This document shows positions 4,286 through 48,291 of a stretch of 64,000 bases of DNA, one piece after another (position 1 is the first letter of the stretch; the number at the start of each line of letters is the position of its first letter). The stretch comes from Saururus chinensis (lineage: Eukaryota > Streptophyta > Magnoliopsida > Piperales > Saururaceae). Location of the stretch: NCBI GenBank assembly GCA_035235625.1, contig CP141147.1:11893001-11957000 (forward strand), given 5' to 3'. The notes below the pieces were generated by a model that worked only from the letters and a program-made list of their open reading frames with translations, was not told the origin of the DNA and did not search any database. The position numbers were made by a program, and so were the translations under genes.

Positions 4286-4999
4286 GTGACTATTCAACCA
4301 AGTTCTAAGATTTTGCTTATCATACTTCTTAATATTAAGGCTTTTGCTTAGTTTACCAATCATTAGTTTATAACTTATTTTTATTTTGTGTCCTTGTAGG
4401 ACTTTAAATTAGGATATCAAAGCAGGAGCAAGCGGAAAGGGGCAGAATACAATAGAATTTCAGCAACACTACATCTTGCAATTAATTAGCAAACATATTT
4501 ACAATTCAGGGAAGCAGTTAAGCAGTTCAAAAGACAAATTTATATTCACATTTGCATGATATTTGATGATTGATATTGCTGAAATTCATGATCCATGGAT
4601 TTATAATTTAATGATGCATGTTCAAACATGACAACGATAACTTTTGTCATTTCAATTGTTCATATATGCATGTTGCCATTCCTACTGCTAGTGTTTTTGT
4701 GTTGATTGTGTAACAACTTGCTTTTCTAATCTTAGTAGTGTACAAGCTACAAATTCATATATTAGATACATCTTGTTGAGAAATAAATCACTTCTACAAG
4801 CCATTCTAGCTGCCCAACAAATCTAAAGTAAACTTTCACAAGTTTCTTGCATGTTTTGCTAAAATTCGTCTTGGCTAAAAAATTCTATCGCATAGCATAT
4901 TATTTGGGACTTAATTTGAACCTATTTTCTTGATGAGATTCATGCTTAAAAGCTATAGATTAATATTTGAGTGTTTTCTCATTATGATGATTGACTTGT
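4286..4999 (+). repeat. Gypsy internal leader, non-coding
   Basis: This is AT-rich sequence between the primer-binding site and the inserted solo LTR at 5000. It contains 'tttgtgtccttgtagga', a phrase seen in plant gypsy leaders. There is no open reading frame of note. I infer it is the 5' untranslated part of the element whose LTR precedes it. Confidence 0.4.
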
Positions 5000-15177: not shown

Positions 15178-15518
15178 AGTGAAATGAGAAAATTACACAC
15201 ACACATACACATATATTATTATTATAATAATAATAATAATAATTATTATTATAATAATAATAATTATTATAATTATAATAATAATAATTATAATTATAAT
15301 AATAATGAGTACACAAGAGAGGTTCTAAAAATTTTAGAGGAAACAAATATGGGTTACTGAGAAGTTTTCTAGGGTCCTTACAACCGTGCTCTAAATAAAA
15401 AGTTTTTAAGTCACCAGGAAAGAGGTTGTGTTTACCAATAAGTTAACCATACTAATGCTGGTCATTGTATAGTAACAATGAATTTTATTTCTCCCAAGTG
15501 GGTGGGCCATGGGAAACT
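15178..15518 (+). repeat. Direct repeat D, right copy, interrupted by an ATT microsatellite
   Basis: It is homologous to 8530-8777 in the same orientation. It is longer because an ACAC/ATT microsatellite has expanded between 'gaaatgagaaaa' and 'aatgagtacac'. It ends at 'gtgggtgggccatggg', about 25 bases before the TATA-like box of the BBE-like gene, so it forms the upstream promoter region of that gene. Confidence 0.75.
15206..15306. repeat. (ATT/AAT)n microsatellite
   Basis: About 100 bases of imperfect ATT and AAT triplets switch strand sense several times, so the tract can fold on itself. It is preceded by an ACACACAC stretch. The Tyr/Asn-rich ORFs on both strands here are artefacts. Confidence 0.95.
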
Positions 15519-15543
15519 TACTTACAATGAAGGGCACAAGGAT

Positions 15544-15552
15544 CTATATAAA
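15544..15552 (+). promoter_or_regulatory. TATA-like box of the BBE-like gene
   Basis: 'ctatataaa' lies about 60 bases before the chosen ATG at 15605. A start site about 30 bases downstream would give a short leader. It also shows that the in-frame ATG at 15509 lies upstream of the core promoter, and that the one at 15563 is too close to it. Confidence 0.6.
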
Positions 15553-15604
15553 CACGAAGCAGATGAGTAATACAAGAGTCTTGCCCCATCAACAGCCAAG
15601 AAAA

Positions 15605-17191
15605 ATGGGCTTTTCTTTATGCAAAGCTTTAGCTATGATGTTCTTACTCTTTGCTTCATTCTCGTATGCACTTCCACCTCCCGAGCAAGCAACATTTGTC
15701 CAGTGCCTTCACCATTATTCATCATCTTCTGAAAACATTTCACAAACCTTGTATTTCCCAAATACCACTTCTTATACTTCTCTTCTTCTGTCTACCATAC
15801 GCAATGACAGGTTTCTGTCATCTCCGGCCCACAAACCTCCTCTACTTATAGTTGCACCAACATATGATTCAGAAATTCAGGCATTCGTCCTCTGCTGCAA
15901 GCAACACAGCATCGAAGTTAGAGTGAGAAGCGGCGGGCATGACTTCGAAGGCCTATCGTATCGATCGCCTAACCCGTTTATTATCATTGATCTTTCAAAG
16001 TTCAACTCCATCAATATTGATACGGAGGAATCCACAGCATGGGTCCAATCTGGTGCAACTCTGGGTGAATTATACTACAAAATTGCTGAGAGAAGTAGCA
16101 TACATGGGTTCCCTGCAGGATTGTGCCACACCATTGGAGTTGGAGGACATTTTAGTGGAGGAGGGGTTGGAACGATGATGAGAAAATTTGGCCTTGCAGC
16201 CGACAATCTTTTGGATGCCTACTTAGTTGATGCTAATGGAAGACTCTTGGACAGGAAATCAATGGGTGAAGATCTATTTTGGGCCATCAGAGGAGGTGGA
16301 GGATCAAGCTTCGGGATCATCATCTCATGGAAGATCAAGCTAGTTCATGTTCCCCCTATTGTTACTGTTTTCTCCATTGTCAGGACATTAGAGCAAGGTG
16401 CTGCTAAGCTGGTGAACAGATGGCAACATATTGCAGACAAACTGGATGATAACATATTCCTTACTGTCCAACTGCGTGCTGTAACTGAAAAAACAGGAAC
16501 AATCCAAGCTTCATTCAGAGCTTACTTCCTTGGGAATATCGATCAGCTCCAGCTGCTGATGGAGAAGAGCTTTCCGGAGTTGGGAATGCAGCAAAAAGAC
16601 TGCACAGAAATGAGTTGGATAGAATTGGTATTATATGCTGCAGGCTTCCCTAATGGAACAGCCAAAGAAGCACTATTGGGCAAAGACTCTCCCTACAAAT
16701 CAGCATTCAAGATCAAGTATGATTATGTGAATGAGCCCATCCCTGAACTGGGGTTTGAAGGGGTATGGAAGCTTTTGATGGAAGCATCAGGTATGGCAAC
16801 TCTAGTTTTGGATCCAATGGGTGGGAGGATGAATGAGATTTTGGAGTCTCAGATCCCCTTTCCTCACAGAGAAGGCAACTTGTACAATATACAGTACCAG
16901 GCATTTTGGCAAGATGATAGTGATTCTGAGAAGCAACTGGACTGGATCAGGAGAATATATGGCTACATGGGTCCTTATGTTTCCAAGTCTCCAAGGGGGG
17001 CATACCTCAACTGCAAGGATCTGGACTTGGGCAAGAATGAGAAAGGAGGAAATACAAGCTTCTCAAAGGCTGAGACATGGGGCCTCAAGTATTTCAAGGG
17101 TAACTTTAGGAGATTGGCACATGTGAAGAGCTTGGTGGATGAGGGCAATTTCTTTTGGAATGAACAGAGCATTCCACCTTTGGATCCCTGA
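15605..17191 (+). CDS. BBE-like FAD-linked oxidase, single exon
   Basis: Secreted or vacuolar flavoprotein of the berberine-bridge-enzyme-like family, whose members oxidise alkaloids, monolignols, oligosaccharides or other small substrates. The substrate here cannot be told. The 528-aa product, usual for the family, has a hydrophobic signal peptide (residues 1-22), an FAD-binding domain (about 75-250) and a C-terminal BBE domain (about 460-520). Both residues for bicovalent FAD are present: His112 in SGGHDFEGLSY and Cys174 in PAGLCHTIGVGGHFSGGG. PFPHREGNLY (418-427) and the NEQSIPPL tail are typical. The C-terminal motif reads YLNCKDLDLG, with Cys470 where Tyr is commoner. The frame is open upstream to 15509, but the TATA-like box at 15544 favours the start at 15605, followed at once by the signal peptide. 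It is intronless, as many relatives are. The promoter abuts a transposon-like inverted repeat. The family call is firm; the function is not. Confidence 0.93.
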   Translation: MGFSLCKALAMMFLLFASFSYALPPPEQATFVQCLHHYSSSSENISQTLYFPNTTSYTSLLLSTIRNDRFLSSPAHKPPLLIVAPTYDSEIQAFVLCCKQHSIEVRVRSGGHDFEGLSYRSPNPFIIIDLSKFNSINIDTEESTAWVQSGATLGELYYKIAERSSIHGFPAGLCHTIGVGGHFSGGGVGTMMRKFGLAADNLLDAYLVDANGRLLDRKSMGEDLFWAIRGGGGSSFGIIISWKIKLVHVPPIVTVFSIVRTLEQGAAKLVNRWQHIADKLDDNIFLTVQLRAVTEKTGTIQASFRAYFLGNIDQLQLLMEKSFPELGMQQKDCTEMSWIELVLYAAGFPNGTAKEALLGKDSPYKSAFKIKYDYVNEPIPELGFEGVWKLLMEASGMATLVLDPMGGRMNEILESQIPFPHREGNLYNIQYQAFWQDDSDSEKQLDWIRRIYGYMGPYVSKSPRGAYLNCKDLDLGKNEKGGNTSFSKAETWGLKYFKGNFRRLAHVKSLVDEGNFFWNEQSIPPLDP

Positions 17192-40600: not shown

Positions 40601-41281
40601 ATTCACCTTTTGTTCTTTCTTATGATAGCCATTATGAGCAAACATATGAGAAGAACTTGGTGAATTACATTTGTGATTTTTATGTCTATGACTTCAAACT
40701 TTTGCGCTAATTTCTCTTAAGCTTTTCCCCATCTATGTGACTTTTGTAAGCAAGTCATTTTTCACATTGTCTCTGACAAATTATGTTTTCTCACTAATTT
40801 TTCTTGTTTGACTCAATTTTAGTTACTATATTCTTCTTAATTAATTGTGTTCCAACCAAAATTTTAGATTTTGAAATAGTAGCACCATGATTATTCAAAT
40901 CGTTAGCCTTAACAAATTTAGTGATTCCTAGGGAATTTCCATTCTTCTGTCCCACATACCCTAAACCATTTTTGTCACATCCAGATTGACCACATGAAGG
41001 AATTTTATCAAGTTTTTCTTTGTCTTTGACAAAAAAAATTAGTTTTGAATTTGAGGTTTTTAATTGAATTCAATTTTCTTAATGAACTAAATATTTTTTA
41101 TTTTATAAAAAGACTTGTCATGTACAAGTTGAGAATTCTTATATTCCATAGCACAAACGTTTGTTCTAAGCATCTTCAATTCATTAATAACATGATTATT
41201 CCTAACAACAACACAAATTGAGCTAAACAAATATAAGCTAAGCATGATTTTCAATTACATAGTAACCAAAATCAAAATTAA
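37641..41281 (-). pseudogene. Ty1/copia polyprotein relic, antisense
   Basis: Decayed pol with part of gag, read right to left. Near 40930-40968: GLGYVGQKNGNSLGI, the usual gag-protease linker. About 39900-40110: integrase, with GIIRGAPILKTYKN and GPMQIASLG-x-KKYI. At 39300-39450: the post-integrase block CHILRDRENLDKFDSKTDD and SRAYRIYNKRTQTL. At 38697-38930: reverse transcriptase start, VPRPKQCNVISTKWIYKNKT and VRNKAGLVAQ. At 37836-37990: RNase H, with GYLDANW, DDINSTSGRCF and STIEAEYIATG. Many stops and frameshifts occur. A CACTA element (41282-47192) interrupts it on its 5' side, and the 5' gag is missing beyond that insertion. The 3' LTR remnant is at 36064-36226 and the 5' LTR at about 47310-48291. 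Confidence 0.85.
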
Positions 41282-41289
41282 CACTACAA

Positions 41290-41800
41290 CAAAATAGGGT
41301 ATTAGCGACGCTCCAAAGCATCGCTAATACATCAAAAAGCGTCGTTAAAGGTTATTTGCGATGCTTATTGACCGTCGCAATAAGCGTCGCAAATAAACCA
41401 GTCGCTAATACTTAATAATGACAGAAAAATTATTGTGTCGCTAATAGTACCTCTAGCGACGCTTTGCACTTCCGTCGCTAATATATGTTTATTAGTGACG
41501 GTTTCAATACCGTTGCTAAAATGTCATACATTTGCGACGGTTTGATGTATGTCGCTAATTAGCAAGTATTAGCGACGCTTTGCCACTGTCGCTACTAAGA
41601 TATATTAGCGACGATTTCTATTAGCGTCGCAAATAATGTTTGTATTAGCGACGCTCAATTAAATTTTTAAAAAAATATTTACAATAGCAACGCTTCCGAA
41701 AAGCGTCGGTAATACTCCTATTAGCGACGCTTGGTGAGCGTCACTATTGAATGAGTTTAAAATTAAACATTAGCGACGCTCATAAAGCGTTGCTAATGAA
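41290..41800. repeat. CACTA left subterminal repeats
   Basis: About twenty direct and inverted copies of 'ttagcgacgct' and 'agcgtcgctaat' fall in 500 bases. These are probable transposase-binding sites. Almost every copy keeps its CG dinucleotides, unlike the older CACTA-derived array at 52-63 kb, where many have become CA/TG. Confidence 0.9.
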
Positions 41801-42517
41801 CAAAAAAATTTAAAAAAAAATATAATGAAAAGCTAAATAGAAATAAACATTGCATTTTCATTTGTAATTATATCCATACAACCATATCTCGAATACAATT
41901 AAAAATCTCTACTTACAATACAAGTTGAGTTCTTTCCTATTAGTGACATATTTAAAACAAAACTATGTTAGCTCAATTTCAAAATCTTCACTGCCTCCCT
42001 TATCAGCATTTTATCATTTTCCTTCTCTTGTGAGCCTTGTGCATAACAGAAGAGGTCATCTTATTTTCAGAAGTGTGAGCAGCAATTGTATGCATTATTT
42101 CAGAATTCTGTGATGTAAAGAAACAAAAAGGTATAAAACTAAAGTTAGAACACATGTTCAGCTCAAAATATCAAAGAGCGAGCCCCATAAAACCTTTTTA
42201 CATTACAACCATGAGACAATCATAATAATATCCCAATAAGAAATCCTTGTTGCACATTATTAAAAAAAAGTAGAAAATTAAGCCACTCACAAAATCCTAG
42301 TTGTCAACTAAGACCAGCGGTGGTGCTGAAAAGAGTCACAAGTACCTTTGAATAATAATATCAAACAACATCGTCTAATTGCCCCAAAAACATGGCTGCT
42401 CAAAAAGAGAAATATCATGAAAAACTTAAAAAATCAATTACATGACATGCAATACAAAAGCTCCATCATGCCCACATCAAGCTTGAGATATGTTACTTAT
42501 TGTGCTAAAATGCTTAC

Positions 42518-42612
42518 TTTGCCGAAAACAGGAGTAGATTTATAACAGCTTTCAACTTGTCTGAAGAATCTGGAATTGCAGCAGTCAGGATCTTCATAAC
42601 TTTAATACTTAT
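42518..42612 (-). pseudogene. Captured M1 aminopeptidase exon e
   Basis: The exon reads ISIKVMKILTAAIPDSSDKL then KAVINLLLFSA, and matches the ERAP1-like C-terminal region of plant aminopeptidase M1. Splice signals are kept (an AG before, GTAAGC after). The last codon is split so that joining to exon a would give SANKLGWD, as in the real gene, but exon a lies upstream in this element. Confidence 0.85.
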
Positions 42613-42692
42613 CTGGTTAGCCATGAATGCAAAGAAAATTTAGTTTATGAATACAATTTATGAAGATACATTCATATATAAAAAACAATTAC

Positions 42693-42814
42693 ATCAATGA
42701 GCCTTGATAGCACAACATAGTCAAGCTCTTCTCTGTATACATCCATCAACAAAAGCAGATAGGATAGTGGTTGCTCACAAGCTTCACAGAGAGCATAAGA
42801 GTAGTCAAGAATCC
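42693..42814 (-). pseudogene. Captured M1 aminopeptidase exon d
   Basis: It encodes GILDYSYALCEACEQPLSYL and LLLMDVYREELDYVVLSRLID, open throughout. The phase continues exon c exactly (DRF-G-ILD). AG/GT borders are intact. It corresponds to the helix-rich C-terminal half of M1 aminopeptidases, outside the catalytic domain. Confidence 0.88.
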
Positions 42815-42901
42815 CTCAAAATGAAGGAAGTCAAATGAAATACATAATTAGATCAGAATAAAACTAAATAGAAGAAACTGAGAGTAATCAAGATCACTTA
42901 C

Positions 42902-43214
42902 CAAACCTATCTGCTGTGGCTAAAGAATTTGTTTTAATTGCAGCCCTTAGTCTACCTGCAAGCATCTCATCATATTTTACCCTGTAAAAACCAGTCTGGT
43001 CCAAATTAACTTTCACCCACAACTCTTCATCATCAGTGCTTTTTCCTTCAAGCATTATATTTCCATCCAATGATTGGAAAAGGTCAGATATGTCTACATT
43101 TCCAGTCTTACTTTCTAGTAAGAAATTCTTGTTTTTCTTGTTCAACCCAAAAAATAAAGTTAATGGAACAATCCACTGGCCATCCCCGACAGAACCACTT
43201 GCAAAAAATTGTGA
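42902..43214 (-). pseudogene. Captured M1 aminopeptidase exon c
   Basis: The largest captured exon, 313 bp and open. It starts SQFFASGSVGDGQWIVPLTL, continues with ELWVKVNLDQTGFYRVKYDE and ends TNSLATADRFG before GTAAGT. 'GDGQWIVPLTL' and 'QTGFYRVKYD' are hallmark phrases of plant aminopeptidase M1 (puromycin-sensitive type). It lies downstream of where the HEXXH zinc site would be, so no catalytic residues are captured. Confidence 0.92.
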
Positions 43215-43326
43215 CTGCAGAGCAGAGCCAGATTGTCAAATTTACATGTTGGTAAGATTCAGTATTCTTAAAATGAAGAATAGGCAGTAATCACACATAA
43301 AGTAAAATATTCTAAGTATAATGGAC

Positions 43327-43428
43327 CTGCTCAAATTCCAAGATATGATCCTTAAGTTTTACACTGACAAGGGGGTATCCCTGTTGCTTGGTCCAAGTTG
43401 AATTCCTCATCACAGATACATATGCTGC
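43327..43428 (-). pseudogene. Captured aminopeptidase exon b, a fusion of two exons
   Basis: The exon reads AAYVSVMRN and then, without a break, STWTKQQGYPLVSVKLKDHI and LEFEQ. In plant M1 aminopeptidases the AAYVSVM segment follows the DRNTPxLPxDxRK segment near the C-terminus, while WTKQxGYP...LEFEQ lies well upstream of both. The join at about 43401/43402 is in frame. Borders are a good AG acceptor and GT donor. This is the novel junction of the circular permutation. Confidence 0.88.
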
Positions 43429-43510
43429 CTGCAGAACAACTACAAACTAATGATCAGCTGAAACTACAAGTGAGAAAGTCTCAAAACTTAGTAAGATTTC
43501 ATTCAAGAAC

Positions 43511-43688
43511 CTTTCTTGTATCCGCAGGAAGCCGTGGGGTGTTTCTATCATCCAGGAAAATGTGAAAGCAGTTCAGGGCCTCCTTGAGTGTGACATTGTG
43601 GCCAAATAATGCAAAGGCCGTTAGAAGCTCTCCCCTCAATAATGCATTTAAATGGCTTTCACCAGTTACACGATCCCAGCCTAGCTTA
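43511..43688 (-). pseudogene. Captured M1 aminopeptidase exon a
   Basis: It reads (N)KLGWDRVTGESHLNALLRGE, then LLTAFALFGHNVTLKEALNC and FHIFLDDRNTPRLPADTRK before a GT donor. It is open throughout. In the natural gene this exon follows exon e and precedes the AAYVSVM exon. Here it is the first captured exon, followed correctly by AAYVSVM but with the rest of the gene rotated behind it. Confidence 0.9.
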
Positions 43689-43959
43689 CTGGCATAAGAA
43701 TAAAAAACGAAAATGCAACAGTTATGCAATGGTGATCAGCATACCACATTCAAAACCCTATTACAACTGCAAAGGCATTCTTATAACCAGCCTGGTTACC
43801 GCTCCCACCTACTTCAGCCAATCCAGACTGTTGGCATGAAGAAACACAGTTCAAATAGAGAAAAAAAGAGCACATGGAACCACTTACTAGAGATTCACAG
43901 TCCAGCTCCCAGTTTAGACTTAAAATTCTTGCAACGACCAAAATTAATACGAAACTCCA

Positions 43960-44420
43960 GTATTAATTGTGCCAGTTTGAACAGGGGGAGAAACAGGGGG
44001 CGGTCTTCGCCTTCGGACGGACCGACCCTAGGGCAGTGGCTGCATAGAGGCGGACGGGCCAAAGACGGCTGCTTCGTAGAGGCGGACGGGCTAGAGACGG
44101 TGGTGTAGAGGTGGACGGACCAGAGACGGCGGCGTAGGCGGATTCGAAGCCGGAGGGCGAGACCGTGGCGGAGCATGAAGGGTGAGGCAGCGGCGGAGGA
44201 GAGGGTGGTTGTCGGAGGAGAGGATGACGTCGGCGACCGCGACGGCAAGGAACCGGTGGACGCCGTCCAGGATACGGTCGGCGTCTGAGGCGAGGAGTCG
44301 GAACAGGTGAGATCTGGTCGGCGTCTGAGAGAGAGAGAGAGAGGAAGACGGGTTAATAAGCGGGGAAATTTTCGTGCGCGGGGGAATTTCGCCTTCGCGT
44401 GACATTTTTGCGCGCGGTCG
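43960..44420 (-). other. GC-rich, CpG-rich block in the CACTA
   Basis: There is an abrupt change from AT-rich to GC-rich sequence with many CG dinucleotides. A 188-aa minus-strand ORF (43895-44461) and an overlapping 104-aa ORF are Ser/Arg/Pro-rich and unrecognised. The block lies upstream of the captured exons on the same strand, so it could supply a promoter or first exon. It may be captured from another gene or be an element-borne promoter. Confidence 0.45.
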
Positions 44421-46469
44421 ATTTTTTTTAAAAAAAAACTAAAACTATTTACGACGCTCACGTCGAGCGTCGCTATTTGTATGTGTTATTGTACCTAATC
44501 GTCGCGATTACTTCATGTTATTAGCGACGCTCCAAGATGAACGTCGCTAATAGTTTAAATTTAATTATAAAAAAATTTCTCATCTCTCTCCTCTCCATCT
44601 CTTCTCTCTCTCACCCCTCTCTTCCTCTCACTCTCTCTACCCTCTCCTCCCTCCCTCTCCTACTCTCTCCCTCCTCTCTCCTCACTCTCTCTCTCTCCTC
44701 ACTCTCTCCCTCTTCCCTCTCTCTAATTAATATTAAAAAAGATAATATTTAATACAAAATTTTAATATTATTTTTAAAATAAAATATTTAATAAATTTTT
44801 TTTAAAAAATATAAATTAAATTATTCCCTCTCTCTGTAGTTTCTGTCTCTTATCTCATTCTCTCTCTCTCTCCCTCTCCTATTCTCATCTCTCCTCTCTC
44901 TCTCTCCCTTCTCTTCTCTTCTCTTCTCTTCTCTTCTCTTCTCCTCTCTCTCTCTCTTATCTTCTCTCTCCCCTCACTCTCTCTCTTCTCTCTCTTCCCT
45001 CTCTTTAATTAATATTAAAAAAATATAATATTTAATAAAAAAATATTAAAAATTTAAATTAAATTCCTCCATCTCTCAGTACTTTCTCTCTCTTCTCTCT
45101 CCCCTCTCTCTCTCCCTTCTCTTTCTCCTCTCTTCTCTTCTCTCTCTCTCATCTTCACTCTCTCCTCTTCTCTCTCTCCTCTCTCTCCTCACTCTCTCTC
45201 TCCCTCCCCTCACTCTCTCTTATCTTTTAAAATATAATATTTAATAAAAAAAATTAAAAATTTTAAATTAAATTCCTCCCTCTCTTATCTCACTCTCTCT
45301 CTTCCTCTCTCTCTCTTCTCTCTCCCCTCACTCTCTCTCTCCTCTCTCTCTCCTCACTATCTCTCTTTCTCTTTTCTCTCCCTCTCTCTATACCATTTAA
45401 TATAATATGAAAATTTTTAATTAAAATACAAAAAATATATATTTATAACTTTTAGGATGAGTTAAATCAACTAACAAACGACAAAAAATTATACAAAACA
45501 TACTATATATGGATGCATGAGAGAGATATAGATCTAATTGTTTAGGCAATATAAAAAACTAGCTGGCCTGTACTTACTCTTATAACACATACCTTAGATA
45601 GGCAATTTATTATTGATTAACAATTAATAACACACTAGTCTAAAGGGCAAATTATTACCAACTATATATAATTAACAAGAGTACTATGGTCCTAAATAGA
45701 TAAATAAGTTACAAGCCTTCATGTTATCGCAGTAGTAATATTTTTCATAATACTTATATTTATATAATTTAATAGTAATAATAAATAGTTATATTTTACA
45801 AATTTATTACATAATATGATAAATAATTATTTAAGAATTTTATTAATATATTTATTTCATAATTTATATTATTCAAATTTATTATATAAAATATTAAATT
45901 AAATAATAATTTAATTATATTATATATATAATTGATTAAGTATTTCATAATTTGTAAGTAGGAACAACATACACAATATTCTTCTAACATAAGTTGAGAG
46001 ATTAAGTTAAATGTCTTAGCACAAATGTAAAAAACCTAGGTAGTCTTTACTTACATGTTATAACATATACGTCTGTTAGCCAAATTATCATCGATAAATT
46101 AATAAAACTAGTTCCAAATGTGCAAATAAGTCGTATGCCTTCATTACAATATTAGTAATGTTTTTTATATTTATGTTAAGTATTCTATAATATATGTTAT
46201 TTTATTTATAAGGAGGAATTATACCATGATCTTCCTCTAACATAAGTCGAGATATTAAGCTAATTGTCTAGGCCCAATTCTAAAAAACTATTTCTTTAAT
46301 CATGTTATAACACTTCCCATTTTAACCTATTTCCTTAACAAAAAATGCTTAAAATTTTATGTTGTATCTAGAGTTTGGGTAAATACGATCCATAGAAGGC
46401 GATATCAATATGGACTACAAAATTGATAATTATGCGTCAAAATTAAATGTTTCAGTAAATATATAAAGA
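44421..46469. repeat. CT-rich tracts and AT-rich spacer in the CACTA
   Basis: First come inverted 'ttagcgacgctccaagatg' / 'gtcgctaat' pairs, then about 830 bases of TCTCTC tracts separated by 'taatattaaaaaa' spacers, four rounds. This is a degraded version of the 450-bp unit at 52-63 kb. From about 45411 the sequence is very AT-rich, with two related blocks ('cataagt(t/c)gaga(g)attaag' at 45990 and 46240). There is no gene. Confidence 0.7.
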
Positions 46470-47192
46470 AAGTAACTATTAGTGACGGATTTGCAAAGCG
46501 TCACTACAAGTTGGCTTGCGACGTTATTTAAAAAAGTTGCTACAAGTATCATTAAGCACTAAAAGTATCTTTTGTAGCAACACTTCCTAAAACTGTCACT
46601 AATAGCTATTTTTTAAAATTTTAAAAAATTTAAAATATAACTTATAGCGACGCTTTGATCAAGCGTCGCTACAAAACTAACATGTAACGACGCTTTACTA
46701 TAAGCGTCACAAATAAGTCAACTTGTAGCGACATTTTCTGTGAGGCGTCACTAATAAAGCTGACTTGTAGCTAAGCTTTACTCAAAGCGTCGCTAATAAT
46801 ATACTTGTAGCGACGCTTTCCGTAAAGCGTCACTAATAAAGCTGACTTGTAGCGACACTTTACTAAAAGCGTCGCTAATAATATACTTTTAGCGACGCTT
46901 TCTGTAAAGCGTCACTATAAAGCTGACTTGTAGCGACACTTTACTAAAAGCATCACTAATAATATACTTTTAGAGACGCTTTCTTAAAGCGTTGCTAAAA
47001 ATCAGCTTTATTAGTGACGCTTTGCATAAAGCGTCGCTACAAGTGTATTATTAGAGACACTTTTAGTAAAGCGTCGCTAAAAGTATAATTTATTTGCGAC
47101 GCTTTACAAAGTGTCGCAAATGATAGTTTTTAGCGACGCTTTTAAATGCGTCGTTAATAAAAGCGTCGCTAATACCCAATTTTGTTGTAGTG
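46470..47192. repeat. CACTA right subterminal repeats
   Basis: Units of about 65 bp pair 'tagcgacgctttc' with 'aaagcgtcactaataaag' and alternate in sense up to the TTTTGTTGTAGTG terminus. CG dinucleotides are mostly kept. Confidence 0.9.
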
Positions 47193-48291
47193 TAAGTTTC
47201 AATCACACGGGAAAAAACTAAGAATTAATCAAAAAATCCTTAGTTACCACTTGTTGGTTTGTTGGATTATATTTATGGCATAGAAAAAATGAAAAATAAA
47301 GTGCATCTAACTCGCAATTAAGTTACAAGATTTATTATTCCCTTTTAAACAAAATTAAAAAAATTTGAAGATAAAAAAAATGTACAAGAATTTTTACTTT
47401 GAAACCCAACTAGGGAAAGTTTACGAGACACTCTTTGCAAATTAACTATGTACTATGTAAACTCAAAATTATAGAATTACCGATTATATTGACAACATAC
47501 TCATTTTTCTTCAAAGTAGTTTGATCTTTATACCACTCTTGAATTCTAAACCAACCACTCCTTGGGTTTTTACTAGACATAGCATAATCTTCTTCTTTGT
47601 GCTCTCTTTATCAACATAGATCTTTCATCTCCCCCTTAGAATTAATGTTCTATTTACTTGATCTTCTCAGCAACAAGCTTTAGCAAATACCATGTGTTTT
47701 TTGCTCTAATCTCATATCAAATCACTCTTTTTGATTTATAGTAGATATTCTCATAATTTAAAAGACAACTCTAAGAACTCCATTGAAGAGATTCCATAGA
47801 TGCTCTCAAAGTTTCTAGGTTTTTTCCCATCCTCCGTCGTGTTTGAATCCCTTTTCATAGACTCACAAAACTTAAAAGGAAAAGATCTCTATTTTGGAAT
47901 AATAACCAAACCAAAAAAATTTGAATTTGGCAACTTGCCACTCCAATGATAGATCGATTCCATAGGGCGATCGATCGCTCCCTATATATTTTTTCACTAC
48001 TCTTCAAACTTGTCGATCACTTCAACATCCTAGTGGATCACTAACTCTCGGCTTAGTATTACACATAGCAATTTCAGGTACCGATTGATCATTCTAGATA
48101 ATGGGTCAATCATACTCTTAGTTTTCTTTTTTCACTATATAAATCATCAAACTTCACCATTTTTTTACCTTTTTGTTCCACCTTCAGAAATAATCTTCAA
48201 ATTGTAAACTAACTTAAAATACATAATTCATGAAATTATTTTGATCATAATAATAAGCCAATACATGACATAAGCACTCTCATGTTCTAAT
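47193..48291 (-). repeat. Antisense copia 5' region and LTR-A
   Basis: From about 47310 the sequence matches LTR-A in reverse complement: 'gaaacccaactagggaaag', 'aactatgtactatgtaaac', GATCGATCGC words and 'taataagccaatacatgac'. The LTR ends near 'tgttctaat' at about 48291, directly against gypsy coding sequence, so the copia element probably inserted into the gypsy element. Confidence 0.65.

Follow-up and report, generated by a model that had tools for sequence, protein, structure and literature searches.

Rotated exons of an aminopeptidase gene in a CACTA transposon family of Saururus chinensis point to capture through a circular DNA intermediate

Introduction

How do the exons of a single host gene come to lie within a transposon in an order that is a rotation of the natural one, with the splice sites kept and with one joint in the middle of an exon? 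This question is raised by a locus in Saururus chinensis, where exons of a plant M1 aminopeptidase are carried by a CACTA element. The model put forward for Pack-TYPE elements is that they acquire DNA when neighbouring insertions fuse, as set out in the passages on this subject in two papers (PMC8903248; PMC13317346), and section 4 of a 2026 review states that a mechanism by which DNA transposons capture unlinked gene fragments may still be undiscovered (PMC13317346). Here, we describe the rotated piece, its apparent source gene, the site into which it was inserted and its copies in the same genome, and we weigh the routes by which such an arrangement could have arisen. The window referred to throughout is the whole stretch of DNA that was analysed, 64,000 nucleotides in length.

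Results

A CACTA element carrying five rotated aminopeptidase exons

The aminopeptidase exons of the window lie inside an element bounded by terminal inverted repeats (Table 1), which starts with CACTA and ends with TAGTG, as the CACTA superfamily requires, and which is flanked on both sides by TAA, a target-site duplication of the 3 bp typical of this superfamily. Subterminal repeats of the AGCGACGCT type occur in both orientations close to both ends. With a host gene fragment inside and the source gene of that fragment located elsewhere in the genome (on contig C10), the element qualifies as a Pack-CACTA. It holds a single open reading frame of at least 150 amino acids and is presumably non-autonomous. 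An open frame of 188 amino acids with a GTG start, rich in P, S and R, lies upstream of the rotated exons (43895-44461, minus strand) and is perhaps a piece of a stretch captured earlier, and the interval 44575-45450 of the element is a CT-rich repeated stretch with several direct repeats of 50-130 bp that vary from copy to copy. Elsewhere in the window, at 15509-17191 on the plus strand, a 560-amino-acid open frame resembles, as judged by eye, a berberine-bridge-type FAD-linked oxidase.

Table 1. Features of the element in the window and loci with an unfilled target site (window coordinates unless a contig is given)
Feature	Position	Strand	Remarks
CACTA element	41282-47192		5911 bp; terminal inverted repeats at both ends
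Left terminal inverted repeat	41282-41295		starts CACTACAACAAAAT
Right terminal inverted repeat	47179-47192		ends ATTTTGTTGTAGTG
Target-site duplication, left	41279-41281		TAA
Target-site duplication, right	47193-47195		TAA
Exon a (KLGWD...TRK)	43511-43688	minus
Exon b, chimeric	43327-43428	minus	43428-43398 from downstream AAYV exon, 43397-43327 from upstream WTKQ exon
Exon c	42902-43214	minus
Exon d	42693-42814	minus
Exon e	42518-42612	minus
Block P1	42350-43397	minus	source C10:16224213-16225273/4, blastn 97.2%; part of e-a intron, exons e, d, c, 3' part of WTKQ exon
Block P2	43398-43983	minus	source C10:16223581-16224166, blastn 97.1%; 5' part of AAYV exon, exon a, remainder of e-a intron
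Closing joint of the rotation	43397/43398		T at 43398 common to both source blocks, 1-bp microhomology
Later deletion, window subfamily	43983/43984		about 355-365 bp of other copies absent: 37 bp of opened intron and captured flank
Later breakpoint, left end of P1, window subfamily	42349/42350		6 bp of P1 and captured flank absent
L035	C9:18.72 Mb		unfilled site
L036	C9:17.22 Mb		unfilled site
L037	C5:5.04 Mb		unfilled site
L038	C10:28.07 Mb		unfilled site

The initial annotation had described five minus-strand exons in the order a-b-c-d-e with their splice sites kept, and this reading stands: AG acceptors and GT donors are present at all five exons, and splicing yields an open frame of 269 residues. 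The phase of the passage from exon e to exon a is the natural one, as had been noted (GCA-AA/T-AAG). Aligned to the solved structure 8sw0, a puromycin-sensitive aminopeptidase, the spliced frame follows a circularly permuted order, in agreement with the permutation proposed, its residues 69-236 corresponding to residues 478-638 of the 8sw0 chain and its residues 1-72 to residues 672-741. Likewise, the Pfam domain ERAP1_C is matched in a single stretch (112.3 bits) once the window exons are rearranged to the natural order, and in two stretches (100.5 bits) in their present order. Two limits had to be redrawn. The joint had been placed at about 43401/43402 and in fact lies at 43397/43398, base 43398 being assignable to either side, and the piece taken to span 42518..43688 runs from 42350 to 43983, well past both of these ends.

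The source gene on contig C10

A search of the genome to which the window belongs, with window positions 42518-43688 as the query, returned at least 27 matches (this and the following counts are lower bounds), comprising 24 loci that bear the joint, two source matches in natural order and one remnant of 35 bases beside one of the 24 copies. The two natural-order matches, both on C10, carry both blocks. They belong to a minus-strand gene for an M1 aminopeptidase that is apparently complete, in which Peptidase_M1_N, Peptidase_M1 and ERAP1_C follow one another in this order (exons picked by eye, some joints guessed), and which is the apparent source gene of the captured piece. The comparison with an intact gene that the initial annotation had called for thus yields what was predicted, namely two collinear blocks in swapped order, with the intron continuing across the ends. 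Since the C10 gene is the sole natural-order copy among the genome matches listed, the rotation is not a property of the source gene itself. Within the 26 kb fetched around the C10 source, there is no second copy of the segment. Source and target sequences come from a single assembly, and the allele that actually served as donor may not be identical to the one read.

Closing joint and opening point across the copies

In the element, block P1 (source 16224207-16225273/4) is followed by block P2 (source 16223581-16224203) in the same orientation, their order being swapped relative to the source. The captured segment comprises 1693 bp (source 16223581-16225274); its two ends are joined at a 1-bp microhomology, and the point of reopening is within an intron. 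Each of the 24 fetched copies has the closing joint and, over 40 bases, shows at most one mismatch to the rotated source.

The opening point is best preserved in seven of the 24 copies (L003-L008 and L022), which retain both outer ends, at source positions 16224203 and 16224207, and in which just the CCT between them is missing; this 3-bp gap is a single observation, as its seven copies descend from one event. The right end at 16224203 is also kept in six further copies (L012, L014, L015, L020, L023 and L025), and the remaining ones are trimmed further inward, some of them having lost more than 46 bp. In the window copy, 46 bp of the opened intron are absent between the outer ends, which is a secondary loss because the seven less damaged copies miss 3 bp only. 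The rotation, described at the outset as perfect, is therefore imperfect in the window copy. Among the loci fetched up to this comparison, the opening region is intact in the source alone.

The captured piece retains its introns, and the intermediate was therefore DNA and not cDNA; the kept introns, together with the location of the joint in the middle of an exon, rule out capture through an RNA circle or cDNA. Helitrons, which capture gene fragments and transpose by rolling circles, resemble the present case in that capture, but their ends read TC...CTRR, whereas the edges of the insert read AC... and ...CA without Helitron ends and the carrier is a CACTA element. We therefore reject insertion of a Helitron.

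The target site

Unfilled counterparts of the insertion site were sought by joining the 400 bases on each side of the insert in one copy and searching with the product, and 40 of the 50 candidates were scored. Four loci were read in which both flanks lie close together without the aminopeptidase piece (L035-L038; Table 1), and all four are uninterrupted, reading GTGTTGAAT(C/T)TAATATATC(A/G). In the filled copies L022 and L029 (= L003), GTGTTGAATCTAATA is followed directly by ACTATAG, the beginning of P1, and in the other five copies with a preserved left end P1 is preceded by TCTAATA, the sequence further to the left having been attached by deletion. At the right edge, the P2 end ATACCA is followed by AATCA in 13 of the 13 copies read. 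The insertion point is CTAATA^TATC, where either a T was lost and an A gained or a T was changed to A, so that no more than 1 bp was altered; the T-versus-A difference does not distinguish a replicative step from simple joining.

One unfilled site, L035, appears to sit within a CACTA element of the same family: a match to the family's left end lies at C9:18717439, where CACTATAACAAAAT is read, and the right part of the family matches to about C9:18726130, where the terminus has decayed, the interior between these two points having been read in part. L037, on C5, has open exons and further long reading frames downstream, and is probably the host gene that gave the flank of the insert. This locus and the captured exon fragment resemble, we presume, AUGMIN subunit 6; a Pfam search with the fragment captured earlier returned no family. 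By eye, that fragment keeps the order of L037, unlike the aminopeptidase piece in the same element. Replacement of an intron was also considered, as the flanks of the insert at first resembled an intron donor and acceptor, and was discarded because the unfilled site is one uninterrupted exon.

Spread, divergence and coding state of the copies

The 24 copies, a minimum, are spread over 10 of the 11 contigs, with none on C2 among the genome matches listed. Both termini were recognised in 10 of the 24 (with up to two substitutions in the repeat and, where several left or right matches were available, with the agreeing pair chosen), and the 3-bp flanks are identical in all ten, which implies that the family transposed while it contained the rotated piece. 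Of the 1681 sites compared, 13 distinguish the source from all copies, most of which agree on one base there. Divergence from the source, in substitutions alone, ranges from 0.6 to 2.8% among the copies, and the median between two copies is 2.2%, for pairs with more than 500 sites in common. As the sites that separate all copies from the source are few compared to this median, the data fit a spread that came not long after the capture.

Three copies (L013, L016 and L017) carry a second, internal left terminus similar to CACTACAACAAAAT and preceded by ATC, at L013:2530, L016:3453 and L017:3489 (L013 and L016 on the reverse complement, in element orientation); these are nested or fused elements. 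In L029, unrelated sequence replaces part of the usual left flank to the left of about position 4650, a further capture or fusion in this CACTA family.

The exons had been reported to be free of stops, which is true of the window copy and does not extend to the family. Ten copies have all five exons, and their spliced frame is stop-free in four, the window copy included, and interrupted by stops in six; the lengths of two of the four stop-free copies, L031 and L032, imply a frame shift relative to the source. Summed over the 24 copies, differences from the source amount to 250 of 15409 sites in exons and 377 of 14605 in introns. We nevertheless reject selection on the rotated frame, as constraint in the source lineage alone could yield this contrast and stops are present in six of the ten five-exon copies. 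Nothing in the sequence points to a working product of the rotated exons, and we claim no function for them.

Discussion

We consider it probable, at roughly three chances in four (0.77), that the rotated piece originated through a circular intermediate formed from the C10 segment, which was opened in the e-a intron, inserted at a break in a CACTA element and then spread. According to this scenario, the 1693-bp stretch of the aminopeptidase gene would have been joined end to end, exon to exon, at 1 bp of microhomology to yield a physical circle, presumably through end joining. The circle would then have opened in the e-a intron with the loss of CCT and been placed into a break at CTAATA^TATC, within the exon fragment captured earlier from another gene; as we infer, this break was in the element itself and not in host DNA that was taken up afterwards. 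Through transposition of the CACTA family, the rotated piece would subsequently have reached 24 loci or more, and deletions that came later would have shortened it in ways that differ between subfamilies. The source, the three joints, the empty and the filled target site, the copies and their target-site duplications are all read directly, and they include the features expected of a circle: adjacent source blocks swapped in the same orientation, near-flush outer ends, and an empty acceptor with micro-changes. The proposal that one segment, joined head to tail and opened in the e-a intron, was captured within a CACTA element is thus supported by the source, the joint, the opening point and the empty target site.

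What favours the circle is that one event accounts for all three joints, while its competitors need a coincidence of ends that they do not explain. By any linear route, the first and the last captured base must be source positions no more than 3 bp apart, the chance of which, under our own model of uniform placement, is about 0.0035 with ends uniform over ±1 kb and about 0.014 over ±250 bp. Later recombination within a captured array shifts its length by whole units, and the need for this coincidence stays. It weighs on the idea that the segment was duplicated in tandem at the source and a stretch one unit long was then captured linearly, which would produce the same joint and order, and tandem duplications with 1-bp microhomology are ordinary events. 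The initial annotation had named such copying as an alternative; we regard it as improbable, given that the 26 kb surrounding the source retain no tandem copy, that the matches include no other natural-order copy, and that start and stop would have to coincide within 3 bp (modulo the unit) at the low chances given above. Nor do we find it likely that a gap in the element was filled, by template switching in the course of repair, with two pieces of the gene copied in turn. The 1-bp microhomology agrees with such a process, and captured pieces are known to arise from patchwork filler DNA where breaks have been repaired; yet nothing would force the first piece to start next to the source position at which the second one ends, and a target altered by at most 1 bp is cleaner than filler would lead us to expect.

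Another possibility concerns where the circle landed. The rotated piece could have entered the C5 host gene or other host DNA first, with the element taking it up later together with its flanks, and the exon that forms these flanks is indeed also present in the longer, gene-like C5 locus. That locus is uninterrupted, however, and a CACTA element with the same flanks and without the insert appears to exist at L035, so that this order of events has rather low odds; it would alter the landing place of the circle alone, not the circle itself. An assembly error or an oddity of the window copy, finally, can be practically dismissed, as the same joint recurs at 24 separate loci on 10 of the 11 contigs and the 3-bp flanks agree in each of the 10 copies whose two ends were recognised; the suspicion of a false assembly join at this point is thereby removed.

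A circular intermediate has precedents on a different scale. In cattle, the swapped order associated with colour sidedness (Cs29/Cs6) reportedly arose via a circular intermediate. In human segmental duplications, according to the passages concerned, a swapped order and micro-changes at the joints are the mark of circular intermediates (PMC7450558), and the statement that a rotation as such has not been described as a signature was therefore too wide. The human and cattle circular-DNA duplications resemble the present case in that an order A-B/C-D becomes B-A/D-C, in the microhomology and short indels at the joint and the insertion point, and in requiring one event; they differ in being large chromosomal duplications, whereas here 1.7 kb entered a DNA transposon and was then multiplied. 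Pack-CACTA and other Pack-TYPE elements, as treated in the relevant passages (PMC8903248; PMC13317346), share with our family the CACTA ends, the 3-bp duplication and the host gene fragments inside. However, the fusion model outlined there takes up the DNA between insertions and would keep the source order, whereas the piece described here is rotated and its target was an internal exon fragment. The soybean element Tgm-Express1 is likewise a CACTA element with several host gene fragments and spliceable exons, but the passages on it mention no rotated fragment (PMC1947982). A limited search of the open-access literature, covering titles and the openings of abstracts, found no report of circle-mediated capture of host genes by a cut-and-paste transposon, CACTA elements included. 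Rotation is thus known as a signature of circles, and within this limited search its occurrence in CACTA gene capture was not found described.

In the present case, a single genome provides the donor, the acceptor and the product, each of them readable to the base, and the joints agree with a circular intermediate. Any collection of annotated gene-carrying transposons can be screened for this signature of swapped blocks, flush outer ends and an empty site, and the frequency of the circle route is therefore testable. We tentatively suggest, as a possibility that is as yet rather less likely than its opposite, that CACTA and other cut-and-paste transposons may regularly gain unlinked genes by way of small extrachromosomal circles caught at breaks inside the element, in which case rotated exon order in such elements would preserve a fossil record of circular DNA in plants that could be dated.
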